Source of the DNA: Syntrophorhabdaceae bacterium
Lineage (GTDB): Bacteria > Desulfobacterota > Syntrophorhabdia > Syntrophorhabdales > Syntrophorhabdaceae
Direction: 5' to 3'
DNA: 64,000 nt
Assembly (NCBI GenBank): GCA_026415675.1
Contig: JAOAGQ010000002.1
Location: 1 to 64,000 of the forward strand
The notes under the pieces were generated by a model, which did not search any database, was not told the origin of the DNA, and saw only the letters and a list, made by a program, of their open reading frames with translations. The position numbers and the translations under genes are program-made. Below, in pieces: positions 45,490 to 58,862 of the stretch (positions are counted from its first letter, which is position 1; every line of letters starts with the position of its first letter).

Positions 45490-47211
45490 CTAAAACCTGC
45501 TCCTCGCCGTGTATTTTGTATGTAAAAGTTTATGGGACTTCTCTCCAAGGGGCTTGCCCAGAAAATCCTCGTAAATCTTTTTTATAGAAGGGTTTTCGTG
45601 GGATTTTCTGAATTTTAACGCCCTGTCCTCCGCATAAAGGGCGGAGGCCCTCTTCAACCTTATCTCATTGTTAACAGGTATAGGCTGTCCGCCGCCTCCC
45701 ACACAGCCTCCAGGACAGGCCATAATCTCTATAAAGTGATAATCTCCCCTGCCCTCTTTTATCCTGTTTAGTAATCTCCTTGCATTCCCGAGGCCGTGGG
45801 CAACGGCAACACGTACATCCCCTATCCCTTCCACAGGGATGGTCGCCTCTTTTATGCCTTCAAGCCCCCTTACACTCGTAAACTCAACACTTTCAAGGAC
45901 CATACCTGTTGCGAGCTCATATGCGGTTCTCAATGCGGCCTCCATGACACCCCCTGTGGCGCCAAAGATGGTGGCTGCCCCTGTATACTCTCCGAGGGGA
46001 TCGTCGTAATGGCCATCGGGGAGATTCACAAAGTCAATACCTGCCTGTTTTATCATCTTTGCGAATTCCCTTGTGGTTAGAACATAGTCCACATCCTTGT
46101 ATCCGCTGGATCTCATCTCCGGTCGCTCACACTCAAACTTTTTAGCGGTGCAGGGCATCACAGAGACGACAACTATTTTCTCGGGGTCGATCCCCATCTT
46201 TTCTGCAAAATACGTCTTTGTCAGTGCCCCGAGCATCTGATGGGGGGACTTACACGTTGAGAGGTTCGGTAGCATTTCCGGATAAAAGTGCTCTATAAAT
46301 TTTATCCAGCCCGGACTACACGATGTGATAAGGGGTAAAACCCCTCCTTCCCTTAATCTCTTCAGAAGCTCACTCCCCTCTTCTATTATCGTCAGATCCG
46401 CAGCAAAATTTGTATCAAAGACCCGATCAAAACCGAGCATCCTTGCGGCGGAGAGCATCTTTCCTGTAACAAGGGTGCCAGGGGGTAGGCCGAACTCCTC
46501 CCCGAGGGCAGCCCTTACAGCAGGGGCATCCTGGATCACGACAAATTTGTCAGGGTCTGCCAGGGCCTCCCATACCCCATCTATATCCTCATTCTCTGTA
46601 ATGGCGCCTACGGGACAGACGATCGAGCACTGCCCACAATTTGTACAGGCAACTTCACCCAAATCCCTGTTGAATGCAGGTTCAACCTTTGTATCGAATC
46701 CCCTTCCCTGGGCGAATAAGGCCGTTACCGTCTGTATCTCTTTACAGACGGTTATACAGCGCCTGCAGAGGATACACTTCGACTGGTCTCTTCTTATAGA
46801 GGGGGAGGATTCATCGATCCTTCCGGAGCTCTTCTCACCTTTAAACCTAACATCTGTGATACCCAGTTCGTTTGCCAGACTCTGGAGTTCACAGTGGAGG
46901 TTTTTTGGACAGGTTAAGCATTCGAAGGGGTGGTTGGAGAGGAGCATCTCTACGGAGAACCTTCTCGCCTTCCTCACCCTTTCGGTATTTGTGTATACCT
47001 TAATACCTGTGCTCACAGGAGAGACACAGGCAGCCTGGAGGTTTTTATTCCCCTCTATCTCGACGAGACAGACCCTGCAAGCGCCTATGGCCTGTACCTC
47101 TGGAAGGTAGCAGAGGGTCGGTATGTGTATATTTGCCTTGAGGGCCGCTTCAAGAATGGTTTTCCCTTCTTCTATTTCTACGTTTTGTCCGTCAATTGTC
47201 AATCTTACCAT
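45490..47211 (-). CDS. hydA: [FeFe]-hydrogenase catalytic-type subunit (HydA/HndD type), set 1
   Basis: A 573-aa M3-type [FeFe]-hydrogenase subunit. N-terminal [2Fe-2S] domain (CYLPEVQAIGACRVC...C), a His-ligated [4Fe-4S] site (HPFECLTCPKNLHC), then a 2x[4Fe-4S] ferredoxin domain (CILCRRCITVC, CTNCGQCSIVCP). The H-cluster domain follows: L1 TSCSPGW, L2 MPCTAKKFE, L3 MACPGGCVGGGGQP. L1 has Ser where most enzymes have the second Cys of TSCCP. With HydB and HydC homologues just upstream it should form a cytoplasmic electron-bifurcating H2 enzyme. It is the last gene of the 13-gene cluster. Confidence 0.93.
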   Translation of the reverse strand: MVRLTIDGQNVEIEEGKTILEAALKANIHIPTLCYLPEVQAIGACRVCLVEIEGNKNLQAACVSPVSTGIKVYTNTERVRKARRFSVEMLLSNHPFECLTCPKNLHCELQSLANELGITDVRFKGEKSSGRIDESSPSIRRDQSKCILCRRCITVCKEIQTVTALFAQGRGFDTKVEPAFNRDLGEVACTNCGQCSIVCPVGAITENEDIDGVWEALADPDKFVVIQDAPAVRAALGEEFGLPPGTLVTGKMLSAARMLGFDRVFDTNFAADLTIIEEGSELLKRLREGGVLPLITSCSPGWIKFIEHFYPEMLPNLSTCKSPHQMLGALTKTYFAEKMGIDPEKIVVVSVMPCTAKKFECERPEMRSSGYKDVDYVLTTREFAKMIKQAGIDFVNLPDGHYDDPLGEYTGAATIFGATGGVMEAALRTAYELATGMVLESVEFTSVRGLEGIKEATIPVEGIGDVRVAVAHGLGNARRLLNRIKEGRGDYHFIEIMACPGGCVGGGGQPIPVNNEIRLKRASALYAEDRALKFRKSHENPSIKKIYEDFLGKPLGEKSHKLLHTKYTARSRF

Positions 47212-47253: not shown

Positions 47254-50200
47254 TTACTGGGTTTCTTCTTTTAGATAACAATGGAGACACCTTTTCGCCT
47301 CCTCTATGGCTGCATTCTGCTGGTACCCCAGGAATACTTCGTTGAAATTTCTGTTCCTTTTCGGAATTGATAGAGAGGGCATCTCCATCCTTGCCATCTC
47401 TTTCTGGTACAGAGACTCATCGTACGAAACCCTTGTCCTCAAAAGCTCTTCCCTGGAGGGACTTACCATCTTGCCGTCACCTCCGAGAAATCTATCTATA
47501 GACATCGCGGCATGCCTACCATCGGCTATAGCCTCGACAACGGTTGCAGGCCCCCTGATCGCATCGCCGGCGGCAAAGACCCCTCTCTTCTGTGTCTCAA
47601 GGCTTTTCGTATCTACCACGATCGTACCGTCCTTACCTATCTTTATACCGTCCCCATTTACAAACGATGTATCCGGGGCCTGACCTACCGCGGCAATGAC
47701 CATATTTGCCTCAAGGGTGAACTCTGATCCCTTAATAGGCGCCGGGATTCGTCTCCCTGTTTTATCGAAGTCGGTAAGACGCATTCTAATACATTCTATA
47801 CCTGTTACCTTCCCGTATTTGGTCACTATCCTCTGGGGGGCCACAAGGGTAAGTATCTTTACCCCTTCTGCCTCAGCCTCCTCTATCTCTTCGATATAGG
47901 CAGGCATATCCTCCTTTTCCCTTCTGTAGAGTATCGTAACCTCATCGGCCCCAAGCCTCAAGGCCGATCTTGCCGCATCTATCGCCACATTTCCACCACC
48001 GATGACGATAACCCTGCCCTTTGCCCATACCGTTTCCTTCAGGTTAAGCCTCCTCAATGCGGTTACCCCATCGAGGACACCCACGGCATCTTCCCCAGGG
48101 ATCCCGAGTTTAAGCCCTTTATGGGCCCCTGTAGCGACAAGGACCGCCTCGTAACCCTGTTCAAAGAGGTCATCTACACCAAAATCCCGTCCAAAGACCG
48201 TGTTATACCGGATCTCTACACCGAGACTCAAAATACCGTCTATTTCCCGACGGAGTACATCCTTCGGGAGCCTGTAATCGGGGATACCTACCGCAAGCAT
48301 CCCCCCTGCGACAGGTAAGGCCTCAAAAACGGTAACCCCATATCCTTTACAGACAAGAAAATATGCGGCAGAGAGACCGGCCGGTCCTGAGCCGATAATG
48401 GCGACCCTTTTGTTCTTCGGTTTTTCCATCGGGGGTCTATAAGAAGGGAAGGTATTCAAGTCCATATCGGCGACAAACCTCTTCAGGCCGCAGATGGAGA
48501 TAGGTTCGTCTATCTGTCTCCTCCTGCACTTTGATTCACAAAAATGGGGACAGACCCTGCCCACAACTGCAGGGAAAGGGTTTGTCTCTTTTATAACGGC
48601 AATGGCCTCTTTGAACTTACCTTCGCTGATCAATGTTACGTAACCCCATGCATTCTGATCTGCCGGGCATGCGTTCTGACAGGGGGCATCGAAGAGAGAA
48701 GTACAGACCCCTGCCCTGCATTTCTTATCCTCTATATGTTCGATAAACTCATCTTTAAAGAACCTTAAAGTCGATAGAACGGGGTTTGGTGCAGTCTGAC
48801 CCAAACCGCAAAGGGATGCATCCTTGATACGGGTAGAGAGTTCTATTAAGTTCTCCAGGTCCGCCATCGTGCCCTTACCGTGGGTGATCCTCTCCAACAC
48901 CTCGAGCATCCTCTTTGTCCCGATCCTGCATGGAGGACACTTTCCACACGATTCGTGCTGGACAAAATCGAGGAAAAATTTGGCAAAATCGACCATACAG
49001 GTGTCCTCATCGGCAACGATGAGACCCCCGGAGCCTACGATAGCACCCAGTTCAATTACGGATTCATAGTCTATGGGTACATTCAGGTGTTCGATAGGTA
49101 TACACCCTCCTGAGGGACCCCCGAGCTGGGCCGCCTTGAATTTTTTCCTTTCCTTAATGCCGCCGCCGATGTTGAATACGATCTCCCCGAGGGTGGTACC
49201 CATAGGTATTTCAACAAGACCTGTATTATTTACAGCCCCTGCAAGGGCAAAGACCTTTGTCCCGGGGCTCTTTTCCGTTCCAAAACTCCTGTACCATTCG
49301 TAACCGTTTAAGATAATGGCAGGAATATTTGCAAAGGTTTCCACATTGTTTATCAGGGTTGGGGCATCGAAGAGACCTTTAACAACAGGGAAAGGAGGTC
49401 TCGGTCTCGGTTCTCCCCTTTTCCCTTCTATGGATGCGATTAAGGCGGTCTCTTCTCCGCAAACAAAGGCACCGGCCCCTATCCTTATATCGAGGTCAAA
49501 ATCGAATCCTGTCTCAAGGATATTCTTCCCTATAAAACCGTATTCCTTTGCCTGTTTTATCGCCCATTCGACCCTCTCGATCGCAAGGGGGTATTCTGCT
49601 CTGATATAGAAAAATCCCTGTTTGGCTCCAATCGCATATGCCGCTATGGCCATAGCCTCTATCACACTGTGGGGATCCCCTTCGAGGACACTTCTATCCA
49701 TAAAAGCCCCCGGGTCTCCCTCATCGGCGTTACATATCACATACTTTGTTTCCCCCTGGGATTGTAACGCAAACTTCCATTTAAGCCCTGTTGGGAAACC
49801 CCCTCCTCCTCTACCTCTGAGCCCTGATTTTAAGACCTCCTCTATCACCTCTTCCCGGGACATGGATGTGAGAACCTTTGCAAGGGCCTGGTATCCGTCT
49901 CGGGCGATATATTCCTCTATATTCCTCGGGTCGATTATACCGCAGTTTCTGAGCACTATCTTCGTCTGATTCTTAAAAAATTCGATCTCCTTTACGGAAG
50001 GTATCTGTTTCGCTGTGGATGGTGTTCTGTAGAGAAGCCTCTCCACGATTCTTCCTTTTACGAGGTGCTCCGAAACTATTTCATCCACATCGGAGACTTT
50101 TAGTTTCTGGTAAAACACACCTTCGGGGTATATTAGAACCAAAGGCCCTAAGTCACAGGACCCGATACACCCTGTTTCTATGATTTTCACCTCATTTTCT

Positions 50201-50310
50201 ATATGGTTTTCAAAAACTTTATTCACAAAGGCGTCTCTTATTTCCCGACATCCCGAGGAGACGCATGCAGCGCCTGCACATACCAATACATGAGCCCGTA
50301 TAAATTCCAT
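47254..50310 (-). CDS. hydB: HydB/NuoF-type flavoprotein fused to a GltD-like NAD(P)H oxidoreductase module, set 1
   Basis: A 1018-aa fusion. Residues 1-95: thioredoxin-like [2Fe-2S] domain with four Cys (CAGAACVSSGC...TGCIGSC). About 100-545: NuoF-like FMN/NADH domain (GLRGRGGGGFPTGLKW, NADEGDPGAFMDR, GAGAFVCGEETALI) and an ESCGKCPPCRIG [4Fe-4S] site. About 545-1018: GltD/NfnB-like module with Cys-rich CQNACPADQNAWGY and GRVCPHFCESKC, an FAD site IGSGPAGLSAA, an NADPH site VIGGGNVAIDAARSALR and AAGDAIRGP. It replaces the C-terminal ferredoxin domain of ordinary HydB, and should add NADP(H) to the bifurcating complex. Confidence 0.9.
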   Translation of the reverse strand: MEFIRAHVLVCAGAACVSSGCREIRDAFVNKVFENHIENEVKIIETGCIGSCDLGPLVLIYPEGVFYQKLKVSDVDEIVSEHLVKGRIVERLLYRTPSTAKQIPSVKEIEFFKNQTKIVLRNCGIIDPRNIEEYIARDGYQALAKVLTSMSREEVIEEVLKSGLRGRGGGGFPTGLKWKFALQSQGETKYVICNADEGDPGAFMDRSVLEGDPHSVIEAMAIAAYAIGAKQGFFYIRAEYPLAIERVEWAIKQAKEYGFIGKNILETGFDFDLDIRIGAGAFVCGEETALIASIEGKRGEPRPRPPFPVVKGLFDAPTLINNVETFANIPAIILNGYEWYRSFGTEKSPGTKVFALAGAVNNTGLVEIPMGTTLGEIVFNIGGGIKERKKFKAAQLGGPSGGCIPIEHLNVPIDYESVIELGAIVGSGGLIVADEDTCMVDFAKFFLDFVQHESCGKCPPCRIGTKRMLEVLERITHGKGTMADLENLIELSTRIKDASLCGLGQTAPNPVLSTLRFFKDEFIEHIEDKKCRAGVCTSLFDAPCQNACPADQNAWGYVTLISEGKFKEAIAVIKETNPFPAVVGRVCPHFCESKCRRRQIDEPISICGLKRFVADMDLNTFPSYRPPMEKPKNKRVAIIGSGPAGLSAAYFLVCKGYGVTVFEALPVAGGMLAVGIPDYRLPKDVLRREIDGILSLGVEIRYNTVFGRDFGVDDLFEQGYEAVLVATGAHKGLKLGIPGEDAVGVLDGVTALRRLNLKETVWAKGRVIVIGGGNVAIDAARSALRLGADEVTILYRREKEDMPAYIEEIEEAEAEGVKILTLVAPQRIVTKYGKVTGIECIRMRLTDFDKTGRRIPAPIKGSEFTLEANMVIAAVGQAPDTSFVNGDGIKIGKDGTIVVDTKSLETQKRGVFAAGDAIRGPATVVEAIADGRHAAMSIDRFLGGDGKMVSPSREELLRTRVSYDESLYQKEMARMEMPSLSIPKRNRNFNEVFLGYQQNAAIEEAKRCLHCYLKEETQ

Positions 50311-50324
50311 CGGATAGATCCTCC

Positions 50325-50822
50325 TTATTCGTACTTTTCAAGTATTTCCATGATCTTTGTGGTCTTTACCCTCCCGTATACGTCGTTGTTCACAATCATG
50401 GCCGGTGCAAGACCGCAGGCTCCTATACAGCGGACAACACCAAGGGAAAATCTCCTATCCCCTGTGGTCTCGCCGTCTTTTATACCGAGATCCTTTTCTG
50501 CCTGTTTCAATACCCCCGGTCCACCCCTTACGTAACAGGCGGTACCGAGACACACCTTGATGCTATTTCTCCCTGTGGGCTGGGTTGAGAAAAAGTTATA
50601 GAATGTTACAACACCGAGAACTTCGTTAATCGACACATCAAGCTCAAGGGCAATCATCTCAAGGGCCTTTCTCGGCAGATAACCAAATAACCCCTGGGCC
50701 TTATGAAGCACTATTATAAGGTCTTTACCCCTTCCTTTATGTCCCTCTAAAATCTTTTCAAGCTCCGTATATAGACTCTCTTCCTCTATCTGAGTGCAAC
50801 GGCAATGACCTTCAGAAGACAT
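50325..50822 (-). CDS. hydC: HydC/NuoE-type [2Fe-2S] subunit, set 1
   Basis: A 165-aa thioredoxin-like ferredoxin subunit. The N-terminal helical part holds the GYLPRKALEMIA segment common to NuoE. The [2Fe-2S] ligands are CLGTACYVRG (C-x4-C) and CIGACGLAP (C-x3-C), all present. It docks on the NuoF-like subunit and is part of the bifurcation core in HydABC-type enzymes. Start and stop lie 2 and 14 bp from its neighbours. Confidence 0.93.
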   Translation of the reverse strand: MSSEGHCRCTQIEEESLYTELEKILEGHKGRGKDLIIVLHKAQGLFGYLPRKALEMIALELDVSINEVLGVVTFYNFFSTQPTGRNSIKVCLGTACYVRGGPGVLKQAEKDLGIKDGETTGDRRFSLGVVRCIGACGLAPAMIVNNDVYGRVKTTKIMEILEKYE

Positions 50823-50824
50823 GG

Positions 50825-52600
50825 CTACCTCCTTTCTGTAGTATTTTCCCCATCGATAATTTTACCGTCTATGGGGCTTCTCTTGAAATAACGGGTATGG
50901 AGCAGTTTATGTGCCTTTTCAGAATTAGGGCTTCCGAGAAATTTTTCGTATATCGCCTTAATCGACGGGTTTTCATGGGATCTTCTATAGGGGAGGGATC
51001 TATCCTCGTTATATAGGGCCTCTCCCCTTCTCGCCCTTTTTGCCATGTTGCTTCCCCAGGACTGGCCACCTCCACCCACGCATCCTCCAGGACAGGCCAT
51101 AACCTCTATGAACTGATATTCAGACCTACCTTCATTCTTCAACTGTTCCACGACTCTATCGAGAAGTCTCCTCGCATTACCGAGACTGTGGGCAACCGCT
51201 ATTTTTATCTTAACACCGTCTATGTCTACCTCTGCCTCTTTTATACCTTTGAGCCCCCTCACAGGGGTGATCTCAAGTTGTTCCAGTTCCCTGCCTGTTA
51301 TGAGAAAGTAAGCGGAACGGAGGGCTGCTTCCATAACACCCCCTGTTGCACCGAAGATGGTTGCAGCTCCTGTATACTCTCCCATGATATCATCGGCAGG
51401 CTCATCGGGCATCTCTCTTAAATCAATCCCCGCCTCTCTCATCATCCTTCCTATCTCCCTTGTTGTCAACACGTAATCCACATCCTGATATCCGCTGGCC
51501 CTCATCTCCGGTCTTTTTGCCTCAAATTTTTTCGCAGTACAGGGCATGATAGAAACAGATACGATCTTCTCAGGGGGTATCCCCATCCTCTCAGCATAAT
51601 ATGTCTTCGCTATAGCCCCGAACATCTGCTGTGGAGATTTTGCCGTCGACATATGGGGTATTAAGGTATGGTAAAAGGTCTCCATAAACTTAATCCACCC
51701 CGGGCTACAGGATGTGATTAGAGGCAGGTTTTTCCCCGATTTTAATCTTGAGACGAGTTCCACCCCTTCTTCCATTATGGTGAGGTCCGCTGTAAAATTC
51801 GTCTCCAGTACCGCATCGAAATTGAGCCTCCTCAAAGCTGCATGCATCTTTCCTGTCACAAGGGAGCCCGGTTCCATACCGAATTCCTCACCGAGCATAA
51901 CCCTAACCGCAGGGGCCTCCTGAACAACGACAAAGAGGTCAGGGTCATGGATTGCCCTCCATACATCCTCTATATGGCTCTGTTCGTACAGGGCCCCCAC
52001 AGGACAATGGACAACACACTGACCACAGTTCACACAGGGACTGTTTCCGAGACCTGCGTCAAAGGCTGTTGTAACAGCAGATTCGTAGCCCCTGTTGTTT
52101 ACCGCAAGGGCATTGACACTCTGTATGTTCGAGCAGACCTGGATACATCTGCCACAGAAGATGCATTTGTTAGGGTTTCTCACGATGGATACACTTGTAT
52201 TATCAACGGGGAGTTTTTCCTCCATTTTTTGGTACTCTATACTGTTTATGCCTAACGTTGCGGCAAGGCCCTGGAGTTCACAATTGTTGTTCTTTATGCA
52301 GGTGAGGCAATCCGTATCGTGATTCGATAGTATCAGGTCTAAGAGTTGCTTTCGTGTAGCCATTATCCTCGGAGTATGGGTATGGACCTTCCATCCCTCC
52401 CCGATAGGGGTCATACAGGACCTCTTAAGACCAGGAATTCCTTCTATCTCAACAACGCATATACCACACTGTCCACCAGGTATGAGATCCGGATGGTAAC
52501 AGAGGGTCGGTATATTTATATTTGCCTTTTTCGCCGCAGCAAGTATTGTGGTTCCCTCAGGCACCTCTATCTCTGTGTTGTTTATCATGGCTTTTATCAT
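50825..52600 (-). CDS. hydA: [FeFe]-hydrogenase catalytic-type subunit (HydA/HndD type), set 2
   Basis: A 591-aa paralogue of the set 1 HydA with the same domain order: [2Fe-2S] (CYHPDLIPGGQCGIC...C), His-type [4Fe-4S] (HDTDCLTCIKNNNC), two ferredoxin clusters (CIFCGRCIQVC, CVNCGQCVVHCP) and the H-cluster domain. Its motifs are L1 TSCSPGW, L2 MPCTAKKFE and L3 MACPGGCVGGGGQS. It shares the Ser variant of L1, encoded by a different codon (AGC versus AGT in set 1), which argues against a sequencing error. Two bases separate its stop from the set 1 hydC start. Confidence 0.93.
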   Translation of the reverse strand: MIKAMINNTEIEVPEGTTILAAAKKANINIPTLCYHPDLIPGGQCGICVVEIEGIPGLKRSCMTPIGEGWKVHTHTPRIMATRKQLLDLILSNHDTDCLTCIKNNNCELQGLAATLGINSIEYQKMEEKLPVDNTSVSIVRNPNKCIFCGRCIQVCSNIQSVNALAVNNRGYESAVTTAFDAGLGNSPCVNCGQCVVHCPVGALYEQSHIEDVWRAIHDPDLFVVVQEAPAVRVMLGEEFGMEPGSLVTGKMHAALRRLNFDAVLETNFTADLTIMEEGVELVSRLKSGKNLPLITSCSPGWIKFMETFYHTLIPHMSTAKSPQQMFGAIAKTYYAERMGIPPEKIVSVSIMPCTAKKFEAKRPEMRASGYQDVDYVLTTREIGRMMREAGIDLREMPDEPADDIMGEYTGAATIFGATGGVMEAALRSAYFLITGRELEQLEITPVRGLKGIKEAEVDIDGVKIKIAVAHSLGNARRLLDRVVEQLKNEGRSEYQFIEVMACPGGCVGGGGQSWGSNMAKRARRGEALYNEDRSLPYRRSHENPSIKAIYEKFLGSPNSEKAHKLLHTRYFKRSPIDGKIIDGENTTERR

Positions 52601-52618: not shown

Positions 52619-54196
52619 TTAAATCATGGATAGCATCTCGTCTCTGAAATACTTAAGGGTGCTCGATATGGGTAGATACAGAGACTGTCCCAAAGGACAG
52701 AAAGATGTATCCCTCATAACCTCAGATATCCTAAGGAGTTTATCGATATCCTCTCTTTTTCCTTTTGAATCGGCAACCCTGTCTATTATTTTTACAAGCT
52801 GGGCCGTTCCAAGCCTGCAGGGAACACAATGGCCACACGATTCATGCCTGAAAAAATGGAGTACATTTTTGAGCATCTCCACTATGTTCGTATCCTCGTC
52901 CATCACAAGGATCGCTCCTGATCCAAGAACCGCCGAGTATTCCCTTAAGCTCACAAAATCCATATTCACATCGAGCATATCGGGACCGAGAAAGGCCCCT
53001 GCGGCACCCCCGACCAAGGCACATTTAAACTTCTTTCCATTTTTTATACCACCTCCGTATTCGAAGATGATGTCCCTTAAGGTGGTACCCATTTCTGCCT
53101 CTATAAGACCAGGGGTTGCAACATGGCCTATTATCGTATACACCTTGGTTCCAGGACACTTTTCCGTCCCGTATCCCCTGAACCATGAGGCACCATTTCT
53201 CATGATCTCAGGAATATTGGCCAGGGTCTCTACATTGTTGATAACCGTAGGTTTCCCCCAGAGTCCTTCTGTTACAGGATAGGGTGGTTTGCTTCTCGGG
53301 TGGCCTCTTTTACCCTCGAGGGATTCTATCAAAGCGGTCTCTTCCCCGCATACGTATGCCCCCGCTCCTTTTTTAATGGATACATGGTAACTAAAACCAC
53401 TACCAAAAATATTCTCTCCCAGTAAACCGAGGGCCTCCGCATCTTTTATGGCCTTTTCCAGTCTCTCTATGGAGAGGACGTATTCACCCCTTATGTATAT
53501 ATAACCGTATTGGGCACCAACGGCATATCCTGCTATCAACATCCCTTCCAGGAGTTTGTGGGGATCTCCCTCCAGGATTAGCCTGTCCTTGAATGTGCCC
53601 GGCTCCCCTTCATCGGCATTACAGATGATATATTTCACATCACCCTTCGCTCTTCTTGCAAAATCCCACTTCATCCCTGTTGAAAAGGCGGCGCCCCCTC
53701 TCCCGGTTAGGCCTGATCTCTTTACCTCTTCTATCACCTCTTCAGGTTTCATCTCGTTTATTATCTTTGAAGCGGCCTCATATCCCCCTGTCGCTATATA
53801 CTCATCTATACTTTCGGGGTTTATGATTCCGCTGTTTCTCAATACGATTCGGGGCTGTTCCTTTAAAAGTCCTGTCTTTTCCCTTTTTATCACGTGTTGT
53901 TTCGGCATCTCCTTTACAACAAGTCTCTCCACAAACCTTCCCTTCAATATATGTTCTTCCACTATCTCAGGGACATCCTTTGTTGTTACATCTGCGTAAA
54001 TCACACCTTCAGGGTAGACAACAAGGACAACACCCCTATTTATCAAACCCAGGCTACCCGTTTCGAGGACAGAAACCTCATCCTGGAGCCCTCTGTTTAA
54101 CAGTTCATCGACGAAGGCCCTCTCAACGGCCCTCGCCCCTGCCATTATCGTAGATGAATCTATACTGATCAAAATATGATTCCTTACAAGATTCAT
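52619..54196 (-). CDS. hydB: HydB/NuoF-type flavoprotein, set 2, with Cys-less thioredoxin-like domain
   Basis: A 525-aa protein. The N-terminal domain (1-90) keeps the thioredoxin-like ferredoxin fold, but the cysteines are gone: ISIDSSTIMAGAR and ETGSLGLINRG stand where CxxxxC and CxxxC are expected. The NuoF domain is complete (GLTGRGGAAFSTGMKW, NADEGEPGTFKDR, GAGAYVCGEETALI), with its [4Fe-4S] site ESCGHCVPCRLG and a later Cys (TSFCPLGQ). There is no C-terminal ferredoxin or GltD module, unlike the set 1 homologue. It overlaps the set 2 hydC stop as ATGA. Confidence 0.9.
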   Translation of the reverse strand: MNLVRNHILISIDSSTIMAGARAVERAFVDELLNRGLQDEVSVLETGSLGLINRGVVLVVYPEGVIYADVTTKDVPEIVEEHILKGRFVERLVVKEMPKQHVIKREKTGLLKEQPRIVLRNSGIINPESIDEYIATGGYEAASKIINEMKPEEVIEEVKRSGLTGRGGAAFSTGMKWDFARRAKGDVKYIICNADEGEPGTFKDRLILEGDPHKLLEGMLIAGYAVGAQYGYIYIRGEYVLSIERLEKAIKDAEALGLLGENIFGSGFSYHVSIKKGAGAYVCGEETALIESLEGKRGHPRSKPPYPVTEGLWGKPTVINNVETLANIPEIMRNGASWFRGYGTEKCPGTKVYTIIGHVATPGLIEAEMGTTLRDIIFEYGGGIKNGKKFKCALVGGAAGAFLGPDMLDVNMDFVSLREYSAVLGSGAILVMDEDTNIVEMLKNVLHFFRHESCGHCVPCRLGTAQLVKIIDRVADSKGKREDIDKLLRISEVMRDTSFCPLGQSLYLPISSTLKYFRDEMLSMI

Positions 54197-54648
54197 GACT
54201 TCCTCCTCATATCGAGAATGGCATTCACCTTTTCCGGGGTAAGATTGCCAAACATCTCATCGTTTATCATCATGGCAGGGGCCACACCGCAAACACCGAG
54301 GCAGCTTGTGAGTTCAAGGGTAAAAAATCCATCCTCTGTAGTCTCTCCAACGTTTATATTGAGGGATTCCTTTAGATATTCGAGGAGTGAGCCTGAACCC
54401 ATGAGATGGCAGGGAGGGGAATCACATAACCTGATGATGTTTCTCCCCCGGGGTTTCAGACTGAACATCGTGTAAAAGCTGGCCACACTGTGTACATAGC
54501 TATAGGGTACGTTCAGATACTCTGCACAGACCCTTATGTCATCTTTAGATAGATAGTTCTGGGGGTTATTATCCTGAAGGGCGTGGAGTATAAAAAGGAT
54601 GTTATCCAGACTGGGACTAAACTTTTTTATTATCTCATCTCTTTCCAA
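54193..54648 (-). CDS. hydC: HydC/NuoE-type [2Fe-2S] subunit, set 2
   Basis: A 151-aa NuoE-like protein. The cluster ligands are intact: LCDSPPCHLMG (C-x4-C) and CLGVCGVAP (C-x3-C). The N-terminal helical domain is shorter than in the set 1 homologue. It overlaps the set 2 hydB start by 4 bp, so the pair is co-translated. In HydABC enzymes this subunit and HydB form the flavin bifurcation site. Confidence 0.9.
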   Translation of the reverse strand: MERDEIIKKFSPSLDNILFILHALQDNNPQNYLSKDDIRVCAEYLNVPYSYVHSVASFYTMFSLKPRGRNIIRLCDSPPCHLMGSGSLLEYLKESLNINVGETTEDGFFTLELTSCLGVCGVAPAMMINDEMFGNLTPEKVNAILDMRRKS

Positions 54649-54660
54649 GACAATACCTCC

Positions 54661-55020
54661 CTATATCGCCTCTATGGCAAATTCTGTCACGGGGTTACCA
54701 TTTACAACGTGCTCGACGACTATTCTCTTTGCCTTTTCGCTATTTATATTCCCGTAGATTATAACAGGCTTGTTCTCTTCGTATACTTCAACAATGGGCT
54801 CCCTTGAGGCAAGACCCTTTTCTCCTGTCTGTGTCACAACCACATCTGTTAAGCCTCTCCTCCCTATCTCCTCTAAGAATGTCTTCAACACTTCCCTTGC
54901 CCCTGCCGCTATACCGCTTGTACCCATCCCCACGACTATCCTGATCCTTGCCTGCTTCTGCCTTAGCTGAAGATCCCTTTGCGCCTTTTCTCTGATCTTT
55001 TTAAGCTCTTCCAAGTTCAT
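54661..55020 (-). CDS. HndB-like thioredoxin-fold subunit without cysteines
   Basis: A 119-aa protein resembling the HndB [2Fe-2S] subunit of NADP-reducing hydrogenases: a basic N-terminal helix, then IRIVVGMGTSGIAAGAREVLK and VVVTQTGEKGLASREPIVEV. In the family the GMGTC cysteine and the later cysteines bind [2Fe-2S]; here they are Ser, Glu and Ala, and the protein has no cysteine at all. It should keep the fold and docking surface but not carry electrons. It is 12 bp upstream of set 2 hydC, in the same run of genes. Confidence 0.82.
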   Translation of the reverse strand: MNLEELKKIREKAQRDLQLRQKQARIRIVVGMGTSGIAAGAREVLKTFLEEIGRRGLTDVVVTQTGEKGLASREPIVEVYEENKPVIIYGNINSEKAKRIVVEHVVNGNPVTEFAIEAI

Positions 55021-55060: not shown

Positions 55061-55588
55061 TCATAAATATTCCTCCATATACTTCTTCAAAAAATCCATG
55101 ACCTCAGGGTGGTTTATCGGAAGCTCTTCCAACTGTTCTTTGATCTTAGCCGTATCGAGGACGAACTCGTGACCCCCTTTTTTGACGGTAAAAGAGAAGT
55201 CCACATCGGGGTTGGCACCGATCAATATAAGAAATGTATCCTTCAAGTTTCCAAGGGGGGGTAAATCAGGATGGTTCTTCTCAAAGCTCGCCCGTATCTC
55301 TATCCCCTTTGGGTTATTACTCTTAAGGGAGAAGCTTCCACCGCAGGTCTCCGCCGTTCCCTTTAGAAGGGGGATACCAAGCCCTACGGTTTTACCCTTT
55401 TTTGTAGTAATAAACCGATCATCCATTATCTTCTCGCCCTCTTTTATCCCCTTTCCATCATCTCTTATCAGAATGGTCAGGGTGTTCGATATATCGTCCT
55501 CAACAATTTCTACTTCTATATGTTTTGCCTCTGCCTCAATGGAGTTAATAACCATATCCATTATGTGAAATGAGAGTTCTTCCATCAT
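55061..55588 (-). CDS. HATPase (GHKL) domain protein
   Basis: A protein of about 175 aa made essentially of one histidine-kinase-type ATPase domain: N box MDMVINSIEAEAKH, G1 IRDDGKGI, and a G2-like GKTVGLGIPLLKG. No phospho-acceptor His domain is present. It may act as an anti-sigma/RsbW-like or kinase-like switch. The start at 55588 overlaps the PHP gene stop as ATGA; a longer reading would run into that gene. Such ATPases recur near sensory [FeFe]-hydrogenases. Confidence 0.8.
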   Translation of the reverse strand: MMEELSFHIMDMVINSIEAEAKHIEVEIVEDDISNTLTILIRDDGKGIKEGEKIMDDRFITTKKGKTVGLGIPLLKGTAETCGGSFSLKSNNPKGIEIRASFEKNHPDLPPLGNLKDTFLILIGANPDVDFSFTVKKGGHEFVLDTAKIKEQLEELPINHPEVMDFLKKYMEEYL

Positions 55589-56322
55589 GAGAGAAAATCC
55601 ATTTCCCTCATGGCCTTGAGAGCCCTTTTTATTCCAGAACAATTAGGCTCCTCAAGGTTCAGGATGGTCCTCTTTCTGCCTATATCTTCTATGTAATGGG
55701 CATCGGAAAATGTCACTATCGGTAAACGCCCTTTTGTTATAAAGGAGAGGATACCATCTATGCTCTTTTCGTTCCTTACTTCAAGGGCATCAAAGGGTAT
55801 ATCTTCAGGGATGTAACCTATCTGGCTTAATATGCTGAAAGAGGGGCTATCAATATGGGATGGGATTGCAATGCCCCCTCGAGATGCGATCCACGAGACC
55901 GCATCTTCTATCGAAATCCCTGCGGAATTTATAAGAAGCCTCTCCTCTACCCTCACGATTTCACCATCCCCGTTGACCACCAGTTGGTCCCCAAAGTACT
56001 CTACCCTGTTAGGAACAGGGGGGAGTAAATCATAGACGATCCTCTGAAACTCCATCCCTGTATCTGGGGAATCGAAGATCGCAAGGAGGTGTATCTCTTC
56101 TTTCGTCTGAAGCTCCATCCCGATTAGTACATGAACATCTTCGGTTTTCCCTATCTCCCTTGCATAGAGTGCATTCTCCACCATGTTATGGTCCGTGATG
56201 GCGATGATGTCAAGGCCGATCTCCTTTGTCCTCAACACTATGTTCTTTGGAGACATATCGAGGCTTGCACACGGAGACAATGTGGAATGTATGTGGAGAT
56301 CGCATGAAAAATTTAGCATCAA
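55585..56322 (-). CDS. PHP-domain phosphoesterase
   Basis: A 245-aa PHP protein. Metal-binding motifs: CDLHIHSTLSPCASL, ITDHNMVEN, IGMELQTKEEIHLLA, IPSHIDSPSF and TFSDAHYIEDIG. The fold is shared with histidinol phosphatase, nucleoside-3',5'-bisphosphate phosphatases and polymerase PHP domains, so it probably hydrolyses a phosphorylated signal or nucleotide. It lies between a DRTGG gene and an ATPase gene, with ATGA overlap to the latter. Confidence 0.88.
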   Translation of the reverse strand: MMLNFSCDLHIHSTLSPCASLDMSPKNIVLRTKEIGLDIIAITDHNMVENALYAREIGKTEDVHVLIGMELQTKEEIHLLAIFDSPDTGMEFQRIVYDLLPPVPNRVEYFGDQLVVNGDGEIVRVEERLLINSAGISIEDAVSWIASRGGIAIPSHIDSPSFSILSQIGYIPEDIPFDALEVRNEKSIDGILSFITKGRLPIVTFSDAHYIEDIGRKRTILNLEEPNCSGIKRALKAMREMDFLS

Positions 56323-56326
56323 CCCT

Positions 56327-56662
56327 TCATCCTTTTAATGCATTGAAGATAAGTCCCACTATCTCAAATGCGCCTTTTTCCGTCCTCAAAATGGGGATAT
56401 TCTCTTCCTCCGCCCTTTCTATTACCTCCTCCCCAACGGTTAAGTTTCTCGGTATAACGATCGCTGCGACATCCTTAAGTTTTGCCACCCCCAGTATATT
56501 TATATGCCTCTGTATCGTGACCCAGACATAGGATTCCCCCATGTTGGCAATCACATCGGATAGAAGGTCAGAGACATATCCCCCTTTGATCTCCCTTTCT
56601 AAATCCGATTTTTTCGTTAATACCTCTAAATTCAACGTCGAGACCAGTTCCCTCACTTTCAT
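56327..56662 (-). CDS. DRTGG-domain protein (copy 1)
   Basis: A 111-aa protein with the DRTGG-like fold: MKVRELVSTLNLEVLT, then GGYVSDLLSDVIANMGESYVWVT and VAAIVIPRN. The family binds nucleotides or cyclic nucleotides in some contexts and is a frequent neighbour of hydrogenase-linked sensory genes. A homologue lies at the head of the same cluster. It starts one base after the sensory-hydrogenase-like gene stop. Confidence 0.8.
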   Translation of the reverse strand: MKVRELVSTLNLEVLTKKSDLEREIKGGYVSDLLSDVIANMGESYVWVTIQRHINILGVAKLKDVAAIVIPRNLTVGEEVIERAEEENIPILRTEKGAFEIVGLIFNALKG

Positions 56663-56663
56663 A

Positions 56664-58034
56664 TCACATCCCCTTATCCTTATCCCCCTCCTCTTTTTTT
56701 CTATTTGGCATCCCTGCCATAGAAGGGGGGACTATTCTTGCCAGATCCAGTATCTGCTCTGCAAGGATCTTTACCCTTTCCCTCAGGTTTATCACACAAT
56801 CCGTCTCAAAGGCCATGCCCCTTATTATGTCTTCCGCTAAGGCCCGGCAACTCGGTGAACCACACGCCCCGCAGTCAAGACCTGGCAACTCCGAAGTGAT
56901 CTTGTCAAGTCTTTCCATCTTTATTATTGCCTGTGAGAGGTCTTCATCGAGGAGCATGATCTTCCTCGATTGTATCGGTTCGGAAATCTCAAAAAGCCTT
57001 TCCTCGTATAGTCTGGCGAGGTTCTCTTCGTCGAAATAAGGGTCTTTCTCACCGTATTTTTTAATGAGTTCCCTGAGTCTCATCCTCCCTATGAACAGGT
57101 TCTGGATGTTTAAAGGTCCCCCCACACAACCTCCGGTACAGGCCTGCAATTCAATAAAATCAACATCCTTTAATTCACCCCGCTCTATCTCCTCAAGAAG
57201 GCTTATCACATTGTGGATGCCGCTTACCGCCAGGGTTGTATTAAAATTAACACTCCTCGATTCCCCTGTGGTGTAACCCCAGGCCAATCCAAGTTTTGTT
57301 GCCCTTTGCTTTCCCCCTGATCTCCCGGTACCCTGATTCTTTGCGATGTGCCTTATAATATCTTTGTATATGATATTTGCGCCTATGACACCGCTTACCG
57401 CCGACTTTTTAGCAGTAATGGGGCATCTCATCTCTGTTACTTTTGCAGGACAGGGGGAGATGAAGAAAGTGCCTATCTCCTCCTTCGAGAGGCCTGTCTT
57501 TTTTATGGCCTCCTCCCTTGCGAGCCTTGCGGCTATCTCCATAGGGGTAAGTACAGGGGTCACCCTGTTTAAGAGGTCCGGAAACTTTATCTGCATAAGC
57601 CTCAACACCGCAGGGCAGGCAGAGGAAAACTGGGGTCTCTCCTTTTTTTTCTCTCTTATGTGTCTATGGACTATATATGCCGTTACTTCCGCAGCAAGGG
57701 CTACCTCAAAGACATCGTCAAAGCCCATGGAAATGAAGGCGTTGAGTATATCCTCAATATGTTCTTGATCTTTGAACTGTCCAAAAAATGAAGGTGCCGG
57801 CAGGGCTATTCTGTATTTATATCCCTCGAGCTTATCGAGTTTATCGGTGACGGCCACCTTTGCATGGTTGGGGCAGTATCTTATACACTCCCCACAATCA
57901 ATACACCTCTCCTCCATGATCTTTGCTTTACCATCGTGGACCCTGATGGCCTCCATGGGACATCTCTTGATACAGTTTGTACAACCTTTACATTTCTCGT
58001 AATCGAGGGTTACGGAATGAAAATACTGGGTCAT
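56664..58034 (-). CDS. Sensory-type [FeFe]-hydrogenase homologue with C-terminal Fe-S domain
   Basis: A 456-aa protein. N-terminal 2x[4Fe-4S] ferredoxin (CKGCTNCIKRCP, CIDCGECIRYCP), then an H-cluster domain with L1 SSACPAV, L2 SPCPAKVTE and L3 QACTGGCVGG, then a Cys-rich C-terminal domain (LDCGACGSPSCRALAEDI). In L1 the cysteine that relays protons in catalytic enzymes is Ala, while the cluster-ligand Cys next to Pro remains; this is the mark of HydS-like sensory hydrogenases. It should sense H2 or redox state rather than turn over fast. It overlaps the ATPase gene as ATGA. Confidence 0.87.
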   Translation of the reverse strand: MTQYFHSVTLDYEKCKGCTNCIKRCPMEAIRVHDGKAKIMEERCIDCGECIRYCPNHAKVAVTDKLDKLEGYKYRIALPAPSFFGQFKDQEHIEDILNAFISMGFDDVFEVALAAEVTAYIVHRHIREKKKERPQFSSACPAVLRLMQIKFPDLLNRVTPVLTPMEIAARLAREEAIKKTGLSKEEIGTFFISPCPAKVTEMRCPITAKKSAVSGVIGANIIYKDIIRHIAKNQGTGRSGGKQRATKLGLAWGYTTGESRSVNFNTTLAVSGIHNVISLLEEIERGELKDVDFIELQACTGGCVGGPLNIQNLFIGRMRLRELIKKYGEKDPYFDEENLARLYEERLFEISEPIQSRKIMLLDEDLSQAIIKMERLDKITSELPGLDCGACGSPSCRALAEDIIRGMAFETDCVINLRERVKILAEQILDLARIVPPSMAGMPNRKKEEGDKDKGM

Positions 58035-58498
58035 GCGGAAGTGAATCCCCCCTCTTTTAGATAGACCTTCGCCTTAACCGTTGTCCCCACCCCAACTTTA
58101 GTTTCTATGTGCAGCTCATCGGAGTTCTGTTTTATATTGGGTAGCCCCATACCTGCCCCGAAACCCATCTCCCTCACCTCATACGGGGCCGTTGAATAAC
58201 CCTCCTGCATCGCAAGGTCGATATCAGGTATTCCAGGTCCTTCGTCCTCTGTGATAACATCTATTTCATTTGGGTCTATGAGAATCTTCAACACCCCCTT
58301 TGTCGCATGAATCGTTACATTCATCGCCGCCTCGTAGATGATAATGGCAACCCTTTTTATCACTTCCTGGTTCAATCCAAGTTGCTGGAGGGTCCTTTTC
58401 GTTCTCGAAGCCGATTCTCCTGCCATATAAAAATCTTTTTCCCCTATCTTGAACTCCAATGTGATCTTCGGTGTGTACTGGAGAGGATCTACAGGCAT
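58031..58498 (-). CDS. RsbW/SpoIIAB-like ATPase (anti-sigma-factor type)
   Basis: A 155-aa GHKL ATPase-domain protein. N box EAAMNVTIHATKGV, G1 TEDEGPGIPDI and G2-like MGFGAGMGLPNIKQ are clear. It matches stand-alone serine-kinase/anti-sigma proteins rather than two-component kinases. With the sensory hydrogenase directly downstream (4-bp overlap), it may relay the H2 or redox signal by phosphorylating or binding a partner not seen in the window. Confidence 0.85.
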   Translation of the reverse strand: MPVDPLQYTPKITLEFKIGEKDFYMAGESASRTKRTLQQLGLNQEVIKRVAIIIYEAAMNVTIHATKGVLKILIDPNEIDVITEDEGPGIPDIDLAMQEGYSTAPYEVREMGFGAGMGLPNIKQNSDELHIETKVGVGTTVKAKVYLKEGGFTSA

Positions 58499-58505
58499 CA
58501 GTACG

Positions 58506-58862
58506 TCAATGTTTATCCTTTTTATTCCCCTTCAAGCCGCTCTGAAAGAGCAAACCACAGCAATCGAAGATCAGATATTCCGTTGAAAAAAGAGGGATAT
58601 TACTCATGCTCCCGTTTTTTATAACCTCTTGATCCGGGGTCTTCCCTCCAACAAAAACGACTCCGGACGCATCCATAACCTGGGCCGTATGGATCACATG
58701 TGCGTTCGTGAGAGATGTGATAAGCAATGTTCCAGGGGTTACATTGATAAGCATTTCACTTATCAGATCGCTGGCAAACACCCTTTTGACCTCTGTATTT
58801 AGAAGATGTTCCCCAAAAAGTACTTTTGCATTCAATATGTTTTTAACATCCAGTAATTTCAT
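58506..58862 (-). CDS. DRTGG-domain protein (copy 2), first gene of the hydrogenase cluster
   Basis: A 118-aa DRTGG-like protein (MKLLDVKNILNAKVLFGE, VFASDLISEMLINVTPGTLLITS, SGVVFVGGK). It is homologous in layout to the copy at 56327, both about 110-120 aa. It heads the run of thirteen minus-strand genes and lies just downstream of the CRP-type palindrome. Confidence 0.78.
   Translation of the reverse strand: MKLLDVKNILNAKVLFGEHLLNTEVKRVFASDLISEMLINVTPGTLLITSLTNAHVIHTAQVMDASGVVFVGGKTPDQEVIKNGSMSNIPLFSTEYLIFDCCGLLFQSGLKGNKKDKH

Follow-up and report, generated by a model that had tools for sequence, protein, structure and literature searches.

We analyzed a 64,000-nucleotide stretch (the window) of contig JAOAGQ010000002.1 from a Syntrophorhabdaceae bacterium (GenBank assembly GCA_026415675.1), whose genome measures 2.56 Mb and is 99% complete. 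From position 58862 to 55061 of the window, the minus strand carries a head-to-tail run of six genes that encode, according to a Pfam scan, a DRTGG protein (DRTGG1), a SpoIIAB-like GHKL ATPase (GHKL1), a putative sensory [FeFe]-hydrogenase (HydS), a second DRTGG protein (DRTGG2), a predicted metal-dependent phosphoesterase of the PHP family (PHP), and a second GHKL ATPase (GHKL2). An earlier reading made from the sequence alone had listed all six with these domains and had described them as joined by overlapping codons. Overlaps exist at GHKL1/HydS, where stop and start share the letters ATGA, and at PHP/GHKL2, where the PHP stop is overlapped by the conserved GHKL2 start (Met19 of the listed open reading frame [ORF], ~55588), while the remaining junctions are short gaps. 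Directly downstream of this cassette are a small gene, here called t, and genes for HydC, HydB, and HydA of an electron-bifurcating [FeFe]-hydrogenase, followed by a second HydC, a HydB-GltD fusion, and a second HydA (Table 1).

By sequence comparison, the cassette with t is conserved in Bacillota and Thermodesulfobacteriota, and its catalytic residues are intact. Among the 61 clade-I loci with sufficient flanking DNA, DRTGG1 was found in 59, GHKL1 and DRTGG2 in 60 each, PHP in 55, and GHKL2 and t in 54, t being conserved beside NuoE/NuoF. Within the 394 genomes of the phylum, PHP is encoded in 86 and a group D HydS in 39, including genomes where the two genes are unlinked. PHP is present in all 39 HydS carriers compared with 47 of the 355 noncarriers (Fisher p ~4e-30, ignoring relatedness). 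The accessory genes, near-constant around HydS, are a real set and no chance grouping, as the sequence-only reading had supposed.

Its own proviso, that the ATPases might be inactive remnants, is ruled out by invariant catalytic residues. In GHKL1, E56, N60, D85, G87, G89, and the glycines of the G2 box are 100% conserved (108 loci), as are D29, N33, D61, G63, G65, G87, and G89 of GHKL2 (91 loci). Both proteins consist of the ATPase domain only, with no HisKA/DHp domain, which excludes their being two-component histidine kinases. The best NCBIfam match of GHKL1 was spIIAB (E=1.8e-14, under the curated cut-off), and in the PDB it matched 1til (E=2.7e-8). The metal-ligand set of PHP (H10, H12, D44, H45, E70, H78, H156, D207, and H209) and its S16-P17-C18 motif are likewise 100% conserved (93 loci); its best NCBIfam matches (TrlF and NBP phosphatase) fell under the cut-offs, and the PDB sequence search returned LpxC only as a spurious match. 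D32 and S35 are 100% conserved in the DRTGG family of this cassette and invariant in both paralogues; the DRTGG proteins gave no significant match in the PDB sequence search. No DNA-binding domain was detected by Pfam in any cassette protein.

Its residues place the window HydS in group D (M2e), among the putative sensory [FeFe]-hydrogenases of TamHydS type. Group D is defined, among other features, by replacement of C299 and by Ser or Thr in place of M353, with TamHydS of Thermoanaerobacter mathranii as its example (PMC8163306). The domain order is two Fer4 motifs, Fe_hyd_lg_C, and the PF04060 FeS domain. The L1 motif reads SSACPAV, placing Ala139 at the position of CpI C299, and Ser193 occupies the M353 position. 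The cysteines of the two N-terminal [4Fe-4S] motifs (C15, 18, 21, 25, 44, 47, 50, and 54) are invariant, and the cubane ligands of the H-cluster (C140, C195, C299, and C303 in window numbering) are kept in 87 of 87 clade-I sequences. Neither a PAS domain nor a small-subunit domain was found in this protein by Pfam. The earlier description of a HydS-type sensor with Ala in L1 and without PAS is therefore borne out; the Cys-rich end that it singled out is the C-terminal [4Fe-4S] motif (Cx2Cx4Cx16C; C388, C391, C396, and C413), already a definer of groups C and D. Membership in group C (M2f) was ruled out, no PAS domain following the C-terminal cluster. Ala in L1 is typical of the window's clade; elsewhere this residue varies, with V, T, I, Y, L, F, S, N, or D in its place. 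The nearest named relatives come from Syntrophorhabdales metagenome-assembled genomes, at 70 to 73% identity. A PAS-bearing paralogue of group C is encoded in the window's genome too (G000:C20, L057); it has its own HydBA set and an adjoining SpoIIE-type phosphatase.

Fusions connect the cassette proteins to one another. DRTGG1 and GHKL1 are a single polypeptide in five loci, and the C terminus of HydS is fused to DRTGG2 in L044, L046, L047, and L186 and to DRTGG1 in L079 and L080. The fusion site on HydS is the one where group C sensors bear PAS or HisKA-HATPase, and the separate DRTGG2 gene of the window occupies the position that corresponds to such a fused output domain. An AlphaFold2 model of the DRTGG1-GHKL1 fusion (mean predicted local distance difference test score [pLDDT] 89, predicted template modeling score 0.75) matched SpoIIAB and the DRTGG structures 2ioj, 3l2b, and 1ko7.

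Gene order and homology link the cassette to NADH modules of the NuoE/NuoF type, whatever complex these belong to. Seven loci have GHKL2 on the strand opposite to HydS, and in every one of them GHKL2 and t are on the strand of NuoF; in 73 other loci, both share one strand with HydS and NuoF. Searched against the PDB, the t protein matched NuoF-type chains at their N termini (best E=5e-15); it is a stand-alone, Cys-free version of the N-terminal thioredoxin-like domain of NuoF/HydB. Since the cassette is tied to NuoE/NuoF and since GHKL2 and t stay with NuoE-NuoF when the cluster splits, its output target is most likely the HydCBA complex encoded immediately downstream; the sequence-only reading had placed the target outside the window, a claim that the seven opposite-strand loci speak against. 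Clustering of flanking ORFs revealed no extra conserved output gene beyond housekeeping, Rex-like, and formate dehydrogenase families, all named by sequence only. The Rex-like redox repressor family, so named by resemblance, occurs in the flanks of 12 loci (L092, L100, L106, L113:6517-7155, and others). As to the window's own subunits, the first HydB lacks the cysteines of the N-terminal thioredoxin-like [2Fe-2S] domain, and the second retains them. Both window HydA proteins have an L1 motif reading TSCSPGW, with Ser at the position of the CpI ligand Cys300; this is not a defect because it is the common form (72 of the 79 HydA ORFs collected).

Table 1. Genes of the cassette and of the hydrogenase clusters downstream of it (window positions)
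Feature	Position	Strand	Size and supporting matches
DRTGG1	58506..58862	-	118 aa; PF07085 E=2.5e-9; conserved D32, S35
GHKL1, SpoIIAB-like ATPase/kinase	58031..58498	-	155 aa; PF02518/PF13581
HydS, group D (M2e) putative sensory [FeFe]-hydrogenase	56664..58034	-	456 aa; PF02906 E=2.2e-36, PF04060 E=4.9e-12
DRTGG2	56327..56662	-	111 aa; PF07085 E=1.2e-7, PF02603 (Hpr_kinase_N) E=3.6e-8
PHP-family predicted metal-dependent phosphoesterase	55585..56322	-	245 aa; PF02811 E=1.4e-8
GHKL2 ATPase	55061..~55588 (listed ORF to 55642)	-	PF02518 E=1.6e-10
t, ligand-less (no Cys) ferredoxin/thioredoxin-like protein	54661..55020	-	no Pfam family
HydC/NuoE-type subunit	54193..54648	-	PF01257 E=2e-47
HydB/NuoF-type subunit	52619..54196	-	PF01512, PF10589; Cys gone from N-terminal Trx-like domain
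HydA, electron-bifurcating [FeFe]-hydrogenase, likely output complex	50825..52600	-	group A6 model NF040763, 858.7 bits (cut-off 765)
Second HydC	50325-50822	-	homology to NuoE/NuoF profiles
HydB-GltD-like fusion (second HydB)	47254-50310	-	homology to NuoE/NuoF profiles
H-domain of second HydA (587-aa frame), tandem hydrogenase	45691..46548	-	PF02906 1.5e-100

The partner complex is an [FeFe] HydABC in Bacillota and in the window's family, and other modules take its place elsewhere. In L178 and L052, the cassette stands between a NuoG-type selenocysteine-type formate dehydrogenase with NuoE on one side and NuoF with Rnf genes on the other; the dehydrogenase genes contain an in-frame TGA, and that of L178 encodes a full molybdopterin enzyme by Pfam. 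In L038, the cassette follows nuoLMN-like genes, and in L183 the order is nuoD-DRTGG1-GHKL1-HydS-DRTGG2-PHP-GHKL2-nuoE-t-nuoF. In L240 and L245, DRTGG1-GHKL1 precedes nuoABCD, and DRTGG2-PHP-GHKL2 is inserted between nuoD and nuoE, after which E-t-F-G-H follow; this interleaving with complex I was confirmed by Pfam for L240, and L238, L248, and L249 have a similar arrangement. HydS is missing from its place in all five of these loci. GHKL1 bears a CBS pair in L238, L240, L245, and L253, an apparent input in place of HydS, which suggests, for the complex I operons of L238, L240, and L245, an adenylate input. Cassettes with HydABC and without HydS are found even in the window's own family (L254 and L255). 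HydS would thus be one exchangeable input of a wider cassette. Several loci show HydS and the cassette apart: L196:12106-19901 (G218) has a full cassette and HydABC with HydS cleanly absent between GHKL1 and DRTGG2, and a group C HydS just upstream; lone group D HydS genes with no cassette nearby occur in L053 (G033:C56), L042, and L043; and in G020 and G058 the cassette lies elsewhere in the genome than HydS, inside a complex I operon.

The ability of HydS to hold an H-cluster differs among its carriers. A tree splits group D into two clades, one formed by the window's family and Bacillota and the other by a maturase-poor set; the Fe−S cysteines are invariant or nearly so in both. Among the 29 carrier genomes outside the window's family that are at least 90% complete, 26 encode no HydG, no catalytic [FeFe]-hydrogenase, and no HydF above the cut-off; HydG was found in the other 3, all of family f21 (G093, G122, and G171). 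The PF02906 proteins of the 26 are of sensor type only, usually HydS alone, with two copies in G033 and a group C paralogue in G057. By comparison, HydG is encoded in 9 of 10 carriers of the window's family and other [FeFe]-hydrogenases in all 10, and Bacillota carriers encode HydA in nearly all and HydG in most cases. Assembly gaps were rejected as the cause outside the window's family because HydG, HydF, and the catalytic [FeFe]-hydrogenases are gone together in the 26 genomes, one of which is a single contig; for G173, G051, and some HydA-retaining Bacillota, such gaps were taken as the cause.

The [2Fe] pocket of the second clade is altered as well (n=27, sequences labeled by maturase status). 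A230 is replaced by Ser in 21 sequences, S232 by Val or Ala in 20, M497 by Arg in 21, and G501 by Glu or Asp in 17, and K358 is lost in 7. The C299 position is bulky or polar and never Ala, with at most one exception (L182, the one sequence where the aligner prints a different residue pattern). The clade-I sequence L079, from a genome with neither HydG nor another PF02906 protein, has Tyr at 299 and Arg at 358 and 497. HydS-histidine-kinase fusions of ~700 aa in the window's family (L260, L261, L056, L063, and L262-L271) have a DPASF pocket, with Asp for A230, Phe or Val for C299, and His, Gln, or Arg for K358. Four of their genomes have neither HydG nor a catalytic [FeFe]-hydrogenase, and the pocket is the same with or without maturases in the genome. 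The contrast between maturases and pocket (Fisher 1e-9) rests on few evolutionary events and is therefore not independent evidence. In the window HydS, the pocket is the normal one of group D, and the genome has genes for both HydG and HydF. In many relatives, the sensor appears, from pocket and gene content, to have lost the hydrogen-binding metal center.

From these data we propose, with a probability of about 0.48, that the locus is a redox- or H2-sensing control cassette for the downstream electron-bifurcating HydABC, acting as an ATP-dependent switch on the adjacent NADH complex. HydS would receive electrons either at the H-cluster from H2 or, by way of its N-terminal clusters, from ferredoxin, and its C-terminal [4Fe-4S] cluster would report the redox state to the DRTGG proteins, to which HydS is fused in two other lineages. 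DRTGG1 and GHKL1, fused in five loci, probably work as a pair, and the redox state would therefore set the activity or the binding partner of GHKL1; the invariant Ser35 of the DRTGG proteins is a candidate phosphorylation site. Output to the NuoE/NuoF (HydC/HydB) module may run through GHKL2 and t and tune activity or assembly posttranslationally, not transcription. That PHP would strip a phosphoester signal or modification is the weakest step. The same cassette, with HydS exchangeable, could serve formate dehydrogenase, Rnf-linked, and complex I operons. The proposal draws on the composition and conservation of the cassette, the fusions, the partition of GHKL2 and t with NuoE/NuoF, and the exchangeable inputs. 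A precedent is found in group C, where changes in hfsB alter product yield and HydS has been proposed as a regulator of HydA2 (as cited in PMC11837493). A redox or H2 input, as the sequence-only reading had it, remains the best interpretation, although H2 reporting cannot be general, because most relatives outside the window's family have neither the maturases nor a normal pocket, and HydS is absent from many cassettes.

Several points weigh against this proposal. Neither biochemical nor genetic work on the cassette itself was found in the literature searched, and neighborhood and fusion do not show the direction of signaling or the level of output. The C-terminal cluster of TamHydS has a negligible effect on catalysis, and the authors of that study challenge earlier signal-transduction hypotheses (PMC13104023), which speaks against a simple relay through this cluster. 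The DRTGG part of an AlphaFold2 model of the HydS-DRTGG1 fusion L079 had pLDDT <50 and was not used. PHP is missing at L086, L089-L091, and L093 and therefore cannot be essential.

Other explanations account for part of the same evidence. GHKL2 and t might be a chaperone and a template for NuoE/NuoF in an ATP-driven set for assembly or maturation of the N-module, with GHKL1, DRTGG, and PHP in quality control and HydS checking Fe−S status. Their inseparability from NuoE/NuoF, the fact that t copies the N-terminal domain of NuoF minus its cluster, and the spread of the cassette over complexes with differing acceptors would all suit such a role, but GHKL1 is nearest to the anti-sigma kinase SpoIIAB and not to a chaperone ATPase, sensor domains (HydS and the CBS pair) join on the GHKL1 side, and HydABC structures have been solved for Thermotoga and acetogens (PDB entries); we regard this explanation as unlikely. 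The similarity of GHKL1 to SpoIIAB/RsbW could instead point to partner-switching control of transcription, with a STAS antagonist and a sigma factor encoded elsewhere. The search for such a target that the sequence-only reading had called for did find two STAS proteins (C65 and C35), besides three SpoIIE-type matches, in the genome. However, neither STAS protein is linked to the cassette, which itself contains no sigma or STAS gene; the small one (C65) has an adjoining GHKL1-like ORF of its own; and according to the flanking-ORF clustering no STAS or sigma gene recurs next to the cassette, the recurrent neighbors being enzyme complexes. Transcriptional control of this kind is accordingly somewhat harder to credit than an assembly role.

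HydS might also be no sensor: it could be a hydrogenase with slow turnover, or it could assist HydABC in electron transfer, with the ATPases serving other purposes. TamHydS does convert H2 reversibly at a low rate (PMC8163306), and in the window protein, whose genome has HydG and HydF, the pocket of group D is retained. Its proton-relay Cys is replaced, however, no small-subunit domain was found, in relatives DRTGG or histidine kinase domains are fused to HydS, and the cassette persists where HydS is lost or the H-cluster pocket is altered, all of which makes this explanation improbable, and the least credible of the three.

The nearest described systems share parts of the cassette. TamHydS, Cthe_0335, and TTE0887, also of group D, have the same architecture as the window HydS and lie beside a trimeric bifurcating hydrogenase and a kinase (PMC8163306, PMC13104023, PMC3561251). 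As the adjacency of group D to bifurcating hydrogenases (HydABC) and kinases is on record (PMC3561251, PMC8163306), that part is known; the DRTGG pair, PHP, the second ATPase, and t have not been described as a system in the literature searched, and the present data add a second clade, with a remodeled pocket, in maturase-free genomes. The group C (M2f) HydS/HfsB, with PAS and an HfsC/SpoIIE-type phosphatase, has a homologous H-domain and C-terminal [4Fe-4S] motif and also lies beside a bifurcating hydrogenase (PMC10055695, PMC11837493), but its output is PAS with PP2C or a fused HisKA-HATPase, whereas here DRTGG and GHKL1 take that place. GHKL1 shares with SpoIIAB/RsbW the fold, the N-box Glu and Asn, and the ATP-binding glycines; those proteins have a STAS antagonist and a sigma factor, and here none is present, DRTGG proteins or CBS domains being found instead. 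The DRTGG fold is that of CBS-DRTGG pyrophosphatase, AF1212, and the HPr kinase N terminus, but in this cassette it stands alone, with D32 and S35 invariant in both paralogues, a comparison limited to the cassette paralogues. Eukaryotic Nar1/NARF also has a hydrogenase-like fold without the [2Fe] unit of the H-cluster and is a cytosolic Fe−S assembly factor that is not known to have such signaling partners.

In the open-license literature searched, we found no account of the cassette as a system, of its link to operons for complex I and formate dehydrogenase, or of the maturase-free clade. Within that literature, the earlier description of a candidate undescribed pathway is supported for the six-gene set with DRTGG and PHP and does not extend to the published association of group D with kinases and HydABC: new are the cassette, its operon links, and the pocket-altered clade, and the sensor is a known group member. 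It is an evenly balanced question whether these genes form an undescribed general control system for NADH-oxidizing NuoE/NuoF modules (bifurcating hydrogenases, formate dehydrogenases, and Rnf-linked and complex I operons), comprising the DRTGG pair, two GHKL ATPases, PHP, and a cluster-free mimic of a NuoF domain, and taking exchangeable inputs from HydS with an H-cluster, from a hydrogenase-like [4Fe-4S] sensor devoid of one, or from a CBS pair.

Group D hydrogenases are currently cataloged as putative H2 sensors. If most Thermodesulfobacteriota carriers cannot build an H-cluster, genome and metagenome surveys would be wrong to list these proteins under hydrogenases or H2 sensors, and the loss, if true, would provide a natural series leading from a catalytic metalloenzyme to a redox sensor. 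Should the cassette control NuoE/NuoF modules generally, complex I and bifurcating enzymes would be subject to a further, new level of regulation or assembly.

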